From Gemmatimonadota bacterium (lineage in GTDB: Bacteria > Gemmatimonadota > Gemmatimonadetes > Gemmatimonadales > Gemmatimonadaceae), in contig JARIFA010000002.1 of the NCBI GenBank assembly GCA_031127075.1, forward strand, positions 1 through 64,000: a stretch of 64,000 nucleotides of DNA. Reading direction: 5' to 3'. Numbering within the stretch: the first letter of the stretch is position 1; each line of letters opens with the position of its first letter. The notes beneath the pieces were generated by a model, which made no database searches, was not told the DNA's origin, and saw only the letters and a list, made by a program, of their open reading frames with translations. Of the stretch, positions 38,857-41,542 are shown piece by piece. A program made the translations under genes and the position numbers.

Positions 38857-39306
38857 ATGCCGACGCCCACCCCGACCTTCCGTGAACTGACGCGCGACGA
38901 GTGCATCGCCCTGCTCGACCGGCATCAGGTGGGGCGACTCGCCTTCTCGCAACGCGAGCGGCTCGACGTCGAGCCCATCCACTACGTGCATCTCGACGGC
39001 TGGCTCTATGGCCGCACGCAGCCGGGCACCAAGCTCGAGGTCCTGCTGCACAACCGGTGGGTCGCGTTCGAGGTGGACGAGGTCGACGCCTTGTTCGACT
39101 GGCGATCGGTCGTGGTCCGGGGGGGGCTCTATCTCCTCCGTGCAGAAGGCAGCGATGTCGAGCGGGAGCGGTATGCCCAAGGCATCGCAGCGGTGCGCCG
39201 CCTCATCCCGGAGGCGTTCACCCCGCGCGATCCGACACCCGAGCGCGCCATCCTCTTCCGGATCCACGTGGATGAGATGAGCGGGCGCGCGGCCGCTACG
39301 GCCTGA
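38857..39306 (+). CDS. pyridoxamine 5'-phosphate oxidase-like flavin-binding protein
   Basis: Split-barrel protein of 149 aa (PNPOx-like / nitroimidazole-resistance type). The pattern HQVGRLAFSQRERLDVEPIHYVHLDGWLYGRT followed by LEVLLHNRWVAFEVDE is typical of single-domain FMN- or haem-binding barrels with unassigned substrates. It is probably cytoplasmic. It may be read through from purK. Its 3' end overlaps the convergent P1 peptidase by 11 bases. Confidence 0.8.
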   Translation: MPTPTPTFRELTRDECIALLDRHQVGRLAFSQRERLDVEPIHYVHLDGWLYGRTQPGTKLEVLLHNRWVAFEVDEVDALFDWRSVVVRGGLYLLRAEGSDVERERYAQGIAAVRRLIPEAFTPRDPTPERAILFRIHVDEMSGRAAATA

Positions 39307-40468
39307 TCCCCCGCCGCGCGAGCTCCTCGCGCACGCGATTCAGCGGGATCGCCTCCACCGTGCGTCCGTTCCCGGTCACGGACGTCGCCATGAAGAGGGA
39401 GTTGTACACCGCCTCCTCGACCGCCTCCACGGTCGCCTGGAACAGGGCGCTCATCTCCTCGTTCGCGAGCGCGGTGGTCGTGAGCCGCGTGGCGTCGGAC
39501 GCCCGGCGGACGGACGGGGCCGTCGAGAAGGCGAGGGCGTAGTCGCCGCTGCCGTTCGACGCCGAACTGCCGGTGCGCCCCAGGCCCATCATCGCGCGCG
39601 ACGCCACCCGACCGAGGTTGCGGTCGTCGAGCGGCGCGTCGGTCGCGATGACGATGATCACCGACCCGTCGCCACGGTCATCCGCCGGCCCGGGCACCTC
39701 GCGCTGGAAGGCGTAGCGCCCCAACGCCTGCCCCACGGGGGCACCCAGCACCTGTAGGACGCCCCCGAAGTTCGACTGCACGAGCACCCCGATGGTCCAT
39801 CCCCCGAGCGCCGTGGGGAGGACCCGCGAGGCGGTGCCGATGCCGCCTTTCCAGCCGAAGGCGATGGTGCCCGTCCCGGCGCCGACACTCCCCTCCTGCA
39901 CCTCGCCGGATCGCGCGCCCTCGAGGGCCGCGCGCACGACCGCCTCGGTGACCGGACGCGCCCGGATATCGTTCAGGCCGCCGTCGTTCGTCTCGCCGAC
40001 AACCGGGTTGATCGAGCGCACTCCCTCCATGCCGGGCTGGGCGAGCAGCCAGGCCGCCATCGCATCCGCCGCCTTCCAGACGCACAGCGTGCAGGTGAGG
40101 AGGATCGGCGTCTCGAGCTCCCCAAGCTCCGTCAGCTGCGTCGCCCCGATGAACTTGCCGAACCCGTTCCCGACGTGCAGCGCCGCCGGCACGCGCGAGC
40201 GATACGGGTTCTCGCCGTGCGGCAGGATTGCCGTGACGCCAGTCCGGATCGCCGCCCCCTCCACGACGGTGACCTGTCCGACGCGCACCCCCGCGACATC
40301 GGTGATCGCGTTGAGGGCGCCCGGCGCAAAGATCCCCGGCGCCACGCCGAGCGCCCGCGCGCGCGACCGAACCTCCTGCGCGTCGAGGGGTGCCCGCGGG
40401 ACGAAGGGGACGATGGCGAGGAGCATCGAGGTCAGGCGGGCTGTCCGCCACCACCGGGAGCGCGTCAT
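39296..40468 (-). CDS. P1 family peptidase (DmpA-like)
   Basis: Exported N-terminal-nucleophile hydrolase of 390 aa. A signal peptide (SMLLAIVPFVPRAPLDAQ) is followed by the DmpA fold: GVAPGIFAPGALNAITDVAGV, NPVVGETNDGGLND, then the autocleavage/nucleophile region AFGWKGGIGTASR. Family members are aminopeptidases of D- or beta-amino-acid peptides; they self-cleave into two chains. Substrate here unknown. The ATG at 40468 gives a clean signal peptide; the longer track start runs into divergent holB. Only 18 bases separate the two start codons. Confidence 0.9.
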   Translation of the reverse strand: MTRSRWWRTARLTSMLLAIVPFVPRAPLDAQEVRSRARALGVAPGIFAPGALNAITDVAGVRVGQVTVVEGAAIRTGVTAILPHGENPYRSRVPAALHVGNGFGKFIGATQLTELGELETPILLTCTLCVWKAADAMAAWLLAQPGMEGVRSINPVVGETNDGGLNDIRARPVTEAVVRAALEGARSGEVQEGSVGAGTGTIAFGWKGGIGTASRVLPTALGGWTIGVLVQSNFGGVLQVLGAPVGQALGRYAFQREVPGPADDRGDGSVIIVIATDAPLDDRNLGRVASRAMMGLGRTGSSASNGSGDYALAFSTAPSVRRASDATRLTTTALANEEMSALFQATVEAVEEAVYNSLFMATSVTGNGRTVEAIPLNRVREELARRGIRP

Positions 40469-40474
40469 GGGACG

Positions 40475-40481
40475 TATCTTA
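40475..40481. promoter_or_regulatory. bidirectional -10 element between P1 peptidase and holB
   Basis: TATCTTA contains a TANNNT hexamer on each strand: TATCTT on plus (six bases before the holB GTG) and TAAGAT on minus (seven bases before the peptidase ATG). Both genes would be leaderless from one symmetric element. No other promoter room exists in the 18-base gap. Confidence 0.55.
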
Positions 40482-40486
40482 CGCCT

Positions 40487-41542
40487 GTGCCGATCCTCCC
40501 GCTCCACGGACACGAGACCCTCCGCGCGCGCCTCGCCGACCTCGCGGGCGCGGGGACCCTCCCATCCACGATCCTGCTGCAGGGCCCGGCGGGCATTGGG
40601 AAGCAGCGGTTCGCCCTCTGGCTCGGCCAACTGCTCCTCTGTGAGGCCGCATCGCGTCCCTGCGGCACCTGCCAGCACTGCCGGCTCGCCCTCGACCTGC
40701 AGCATCCGGATCTGCGGTGGTTCTTCCCGCACGAGAAAATCAAAGGGGATGAGCCGTCGACGGAGGAGGTCGACGAGCGCTACCTCGGCGACGTCGCCGA
40801 GCGGCGCGAGGCCGCAGGGCTCTACACGCGCCCGGACGGCTCGATGGCGATCTACAAGTACACCGCGAAGCTCCTGACCGGGCTCGCCGCGAAATCGCCA
40901 GCACTCGCCAAGCGAAAGGTCTTCGTCATCGGCGACGCCGAACGGATGGCGCCGCAGGCCGCGAACCAGGAGATGTCGAACGCGGTGCTGAAGCTCCTCG
41001 AGGAGCCCGCGGCGAACACGACCTTCATCCTGACGTCGAGTGAACCAGGGGCCCTGCTCCCGACGATCCGCTCCCGCACCGTTTCCTTCCGTCTCTCGCC
41101 CGTGCCGGACGGGGCGATGCGCCCGCTGCTCGCAGAGCCCGCGGTCGCGGCCGCCGTGCCGAATGAACCGCCCGAGACGTTGCTCGCGATGGCGGGCGGC
41201 GCACTCGGGGCACTCATCGGGGGCGAGGGGCGTCGCGACGCGGTCGCGCGCGCACGACTGCTCCTCGCGGCCGCCGATGGGGGGCGCGAGTCGATGCTGA
41301 AGGCCGCCTTCGGTGCGGGATCGGCCAAGGCGCGCGGCGCCTTCCGCGAGACACTCGAGGCCCTCCTGGTGCTCCTGCGCGAACGCGCGCGGGCCGCAAC
41401 CACCTCCGGGGACGCCACCACTGCGATGCGCGCCCTCCGCGCCATCCCCGCGGTCGAGGAGGCGAAGATGGCGACCGAGGTGAACGCCATCCCGCAGCTC
41501 CTGGCGCTCGACGTGATGCGGGCCGTCGCCGGTGATCGCTGA
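40487..41542 (+). CDS. holB: DNA polymerase III clamp loader subunit delta'
   Basis: AAA+ clamp-loader subunit of 351 aa. It has a P-loop-like GPAGIGKQ, the zinc-binding Cys set (CEAASRPCGTCQHC), the sensor region NAVLKLLEEPAANTTFIL with TSSEPGALLPTIRSR, and a C-terminal helical collar. The start is GTG 40487 (VPILPLHGHE). Earlier track codons lie inside the divergent peptidase. moaC follows after a short TGACCCC-type repeat. Confidence 0.93.
   Translation: MPILPLHGHETLRARLADLAGAGTLPSTILLQGPAGIGKQRFALWLGQLLLCEAASRPCGTCQHCRLALDLQHPDLRWFFPHEKIKGDEPSTEEVDERYLGDVAERREAAGLYTRPDGSMAIYKYTAKLLTGLAAKSPALAKRKVFVIGDAERMAPQAANQEMSNAVLKLLEEPAANTTFILTSSEPGALLPTIRSRTVSFRLSPVPDGAMRPLLAEPAVAAAVPNEPPETLLAMAGGALGALIGGEGRRDAVARARLLLAAADGGRESMLKAAFGAGSAKARGAFRETLEALLVLLRERARAATTSGDATTAMRALRAIPAVEEAKMATEVNAIPQLLALDVMRAVAGDR

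Follow-up and report, generated by a model that had tools for sequence, protein, structure and literature searches.

Two divergent genes separated by 18 bases

The window, i.e., the whole 64,000-nucleotide stretch of Gemmatimonadota DNA (family Gemmatimonadaceae) that was analysed, carries two divergent genes with an intergenic gap of 18 bases, GGGACGTATCTTACGCCT (40469..40486), from start codon to start codon. On the plus strand, holB (40487..41542) begins with GTG and codes for a DNA polymerase III delta' subunit of 351 aa that matches the profiles PF13177 (DNA_pol3_delta2; 3e-34) and TIGR00678 (holB; 2e-40), the latter below the full-model cut-off of TIGR00678. On the minus strand, a gene of peptidase family S58 (DmpA/“P1 family”; 39296..40468) begins with ATG and codes for 390 aa that match PF03576 (Peptidase_S58; 5e-112) and, as judged by eye, start with a signal-peptide-like stretch. 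These profile matches bear out the identities, P1 peptidase and holB, that a first-pass annotation had proposed for the two genes. At their 3′ ends, the S58 peptidase gene and a convergent pyridoxamine 5′-phosphate oxidase-like gene (38857..39306, plus strand; PF12900) overlap by 11 bases (39296-39306).

Wrongly assigned start codons were considered for both genes and rejected. Relatives share the N-terminus of the holB product, M-P-x-x-P-L-x-G-H, from residue 1 onwards, while the CAT of the peptidase start is invariant in place and the position of its ATG is conserved in 19 loci.

Two readings of one heptamer

From 40466 to 40489, the sequence reads CAT GGGACG TATCTTA CGCCT GTG. The first-pass annotation had placed TATCTT six bases before the holB GTG (40487) and TAAGAT seven bases before the peptidase ATG (40468), within a gap of 18 bases, and the sequence agrees with it on all three counts. 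The predicted -10 element of holB thus occupies 40475..40480 on the plus strand and that of the peptidase 40476..40481 on the minus strand, the first T of TANNNT lying at -12 for holB (offset 6) and at -13 for the peptidase (offset 7). The heptamer common to both (40475..40481; TANNNTA) had been described as symmetric, which holds for its TA...TA frame and not for the heptamer as a whole. TATCTTA is no true palindrome, and TA...TA symmetry is all that two TANNNT elements require. A holB RNA starting at G40487 would place -7 at T40480 and -11 at A40476. The same two base pairs form the -11 and -7 of the minus promoter, the canonical start of which is 40469 (C), one base upstream of the peptidase ATG. 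The implied spacing of the start sites is therefore 18 (40487/40469), or 19 if the minus RNA starts at the A of the ATG.

Neither a -35 element nor an extended -10 was recognized for the two readings. The best matches to TTGACA at a spacing of 15-19 reach 1-3 of 6 positions, no better than at random positions, and the TGn triplet of an extended -10 is absent upstream of both. Neither strand has a T at -18: the plus-strand base is G (as in 15/18 loci), and the minus-strand base is C because holB begins with GTG.

A genome-wide signal of leaderless genes

Leaderless genes preceded by TANNNT are known in many bacteria (Zheng et al., 2011, PMC3160421, in which Gemmatimonadetes are not mentioned), including M. 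tuberculosis (Cortes et al., 2013, PMC3898074). Genes were called in 1.03 Mb of the genome of the window and in 0.4 Mb of a congener (G016), expected TANNNT counts being taken from out-of-frame starts. Before in-frame starts of the former, TANNNT shows a sharp genome-wide peak at offset 6 (50 observed vs. 6.3 expected), with 14 and 25 occurrences at offsets 5 and 7 (3.8 expected at each); the peak of G016 likewise falls at offset 6 (24 vs. 2.6). About 89 of the 779 called genes have a leaderless-type TANNNT promoter. Position 5 of these hexamers is T in 71% and A in 15%, and the hexamer is directly followed by A in 8/89 cases, or in 3/41 in G016.

Given the peak at offset 6 and the enrichment at 5 and 7, both genes of the divergent pair fit leaderless promoters: the holB element stands about 12 bp (first T) before its start codon, a distance enriched genome-wide, and the peptidase element stands at offset 7, also enriched. 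The first-pass annotation had both transcripts leaderless, which accords with the offset-6 peak for holB; for the peptidase, with its canonical start at 40469, the prediction has to be widened to a leaderless mRNA or one with a 1-nt leader. The minus element has two weak points, namely A at position 5, where T is favoured, and an offset of 7 instead of 6. Since TATCTT, being TANNTT-like, is closer to the genome consensus than TAAGAT, the holB direction is probably the stronger.

Transcription-factor operators commonly take the form of a short, symmetric, conserved site in the space that separates divergent genes, and the heptamer fits this layout. That it is an operator and not a promoter core is nevertheless highly improbable, as TANNNT, including the identical TATCTT, precedes many unrelated genes by this same distance and peaks sharply in its position relative to start codons, and as the heptamer is the only conserved block of the gap in the aligned loci.

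Conservation of the fused gap

Orthologues of holB were gathered from contigs of the genus, the family and GTDB. Nineteen species share the arrangement CAT-N6-TA[T/A][C/T]TTA-N5-GTG, with a divergent S58 gene in all of them (one contig being truncated). The gap measures 18 bp in 18 of the 19 and 17 in the other (L022, N5 instead of N6), while the heptamer is TATTTTA in three, TAACTTA in one and TATCTTA in the others. In 19/19 loci, TANNNTA can thus be read as a -10 on either strand, the -7T of one reading pairing with the -11A of the other. On the holB tree, the columns T-12, A-11, T-8, T-7, and A-6, invariant in 18/18 aligned loci, have 0 changes; the two middle columns of the heptamer changed once each, and the eleven spacer columns 2-7 times each (mean 4.8). 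All 12 congeners found to have both genes side by side keep the arrangement, and in 179 genomes of the family, CAY-N6-TATCTTA-N5-RTG has 20 matches, 14 of them at this holB locus. When the 40-species clade of the holB tree is labelled for the fused form, five changes are needed, three of them forced by well-supported branches; few lineages gained or retained the form, which left 1-3 usable pairs for an independent-pair test.

Within a single genome, the layout does not stand out. TATCTTA occurs 7 times in the 2.2-Mb genome. Divergent layouts were found by direct scan; the gene caller had missed holB, preferring a longer, overlapping start of the peptidase. CAY-N-TA...TA-N-RTG between long divergent ORFs was found twice in 1.03 Mb, which equals the count for the control core AT...AT, and shared-element candidates were absent from the 0.4 Mb of G016. 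A genome-wide family of shared elements was accordingly rejected, and the shared element is taken to be locus-specific. Since these one-genome statistics are near chance, the weight comes from conservation across species, which, on comparison of the sequences, lifts the layout well beyond chance.

The second candidate of the scan, in the same genome (locus L224; G000:C48:6969-6993), reads CAC GGCGGG TAAATTA CGACGT ATG; its minus-strand neighbour is an ORF of 257 aa that matches no Pfam profile, and its plus-strand neighbour is a gene of the PAP2 family. Its TAAATTA satisfies TANNTT on both strands and is kept in G003 as TAAACTA.

The seventh base of the heptamer (A40481) bears on dual use, being needed by the minus-strand promoter and irrelevant to that of holB. 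It is A in 19/19 fused loci vs. 2/28 holB promoters with TANNNT in other layouts (Fisher 3e-11, shared ancestry ignored); corrected for ancestry, the pair test of this base comprises 1-3 independent pairs. The absence of any change at this column amid fast-changing neighbours is a fairer measure than the Fisher value. In five congener loci (L240, L241, L243, L244, L245), TAAACTA is kept at offset 7 before the PAP2-family gene, where a divergent start codon is absent at the matching distance. As the seventh A is also conserved in promoters of this kind, it is by itself no proof of dual use.

Separate elements in sister species

Six relatives (L029, L034, L036, L039, L065, L076) have the same divergent pair with a wider gap of 29-66 bp and two elements. 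In all six, the S58 ATG is preceded at a distance of exactly 6 bases by TATCTT or TATTTT, and holB has another TATCTT or TAACTT before it, which is never followed by A. The dedicated element of the peptidase means that use of a leaderless-type -10 by this gene is seen independently of the fused gap.

These relatives bear on whether, in the fused form, the element is used by holB alone, with the peptidase promoter elsewhere (e.g., within holB) and the near-symmetry incidental. Such an arrangement would agree with the poorer match of TAAGAT to the TANNTT consensus of the genome, with the control-level count of the layout in one genome and with the S58 frame, which has no stop codon through the gap and on into the antisense strand of holB. 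It would leave unexplained the fixed gap length, the leaderless-type -10 that the peptidase of sister species has of its own at offset 6, and the invariance of a seventh base that is of no use to holB and rarely A elsewhere. We therefore consider exclusive use by holB unlikely.

A proposed minimal bidirectional promoter

The reading that we favour, and consider likely on this comparative evidence, is that a minimal bidirectional promoter makes up the 18-base gap, with one heptamer serving two leaderless or near-leaderless mRNAs. The proposal of the first-pass annotation that one symmetric -10 serves both genes is, to this extent, supported in 19 species. A single TANNNTA would be recognized in either orientation by RNA polymerase with the housekeeping sigma factor, no part being played by a -35 element, and both strands would be transcribed. 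The -11A and -7T of one promoter would pair reciprocally with the -7T and -11A of the other, so that RNAs start 18 bp apart on opposite strands. The holB transcript is predicted to start at the G of GTG and to be leaderless; that of the peptidase would start at the A of ATG or one base before it, and the polymerase might be expected to favour the adjacent A40468 over C40469, which would yield a leaderless mRNA.

Both components of this proposal have precedents. Promoters with a symmetric -10, in which the -7 and -11 positions pair reciprocally and the starts are 18 bp from each other, were described in Salmonella and, by citation in the same paper, in E. coli and most bacteria (Middlemiss et al., 2023, PMC10268837; see also Warman et al., 2021, as cited there). 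Divergent starts of bidirectional promoters lie 7-25 bp apart, 18 bp being the commonest spacing (Middlemiss et al., 2023), and T at -18 of symmetric -10 promoters is frequent without being obligatory. The heptamer resembles these promoters in having one -10 on both strands, reciprocal -7 and -11 positions, an implied 18-bp spacing and divergent genes. It differs from them in being TANNNTA and not TATAAT-like, in lacking -18T, in the conservation of its layout across many species and in that both predicted mRNAs begin at start codons; with both products being mRNAs from their start codons, the promoter would fill the whole intergenic space. With the reported leaderless TANNNT genes, the locus has in common a TANNNT about 12 bp (first T) before the start codon, the absence of a -35 element and a high-GC genome; in those reports, each gene has a promoter to itself, whereas one element would here serve two. 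Two adjoining divergent genes that are both leaderless, as predicted here, are also exemplified in M. tuberculosis by prpD (Rv1130) and Rv1129c, according to Cortes et al. (2013).

What appears to be new is the combination of the two known kinds, symmetric bidirectional promoters and leaderless TANNNT genes. In the literature searched, coverage of which is incomplete, no report was found of one -10 shared by two genes whose transcripts both begin at the start codon, nor any start-site map for Gemmatimonadota. The locus thereby offers comparative evidence for leaderless expression in this phylum, and the gap, 18 bases between two start codons with a single -10 to serve both, looks like the lower size limit of a divergent bacterial intergenic region.

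Loss of the peptidase and the question of coupling

If both promoters are active, steric exclusion of the two orientations is, from the geometry, near certain, and the two would not be occupied simultaneously. The first-pass annotation went further and saw in mutual exclusion a coupling of a replication gene (holB) and an exported peptidase. A selected regulatory switch of this sort would draw on the complete overlap of the polymerase footprints expected in both orientations and on the retention of the arrangement in 12/12 congeners with adjoining genes. It is quite improbable nonetheless, considering that the elements are separate in sister species, that compaction alone accounts for the layout and that the peptidase is dispensable to some members of the genus. 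The S58 peptidase was not found in the genomes of G003, G004, G009, G011, and G014. Three of these congeners, G009 (L016/L050), G011 (L018/L052), and G014 (L023), retain holB, so that the coupling is not obligatory. Directly upstream of holB in G009 and G011 lies the pyridoxamine-oxidase-like gene, without TANNNT, as the sequence also indicates for G014, and holB simply follows this gene, which suggests a change from its own promoter to an operon. In G009, the stop codon of the upstream gene overlaps the holB start as TAGTG. In G003 and G004 (listed as 96-98% complete), no holB match was obtained with the P0001 query; each has a single PF13177 match, resembling the dnaX-type match of other genomes.

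From these comparisons, the shared form appears to be one state of an evolvable locus at which elements are shared, separate or lost. It is a doubtful, if conceivable, extension of the minimal bidirectional promoter favoured above that two mRNAs beginning at their start codons have no promoter but a 7-bp element, and that this is kept throughout a genus-level radiation as a competitive switch, the locus moving in evolution between shared and separate elements. Since close relatives differ in having a single shared element, a separate element for each gene or no element at all, the locus is well suited to asking whether sharing a -10 makes the genes compete, and also how shared and separate promoters interconvert. 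At four further loci (L095, L100, L108, L120), CATATTCGAATG-ATG or CATAATTGAATG-ATG lies upstream of holB, and a possible CAT of the peptidase start, the position of which is uncertain there, falls within the presumed -10 of holB; at these loci, the two promoters may be interlocked instead of sharing an element.
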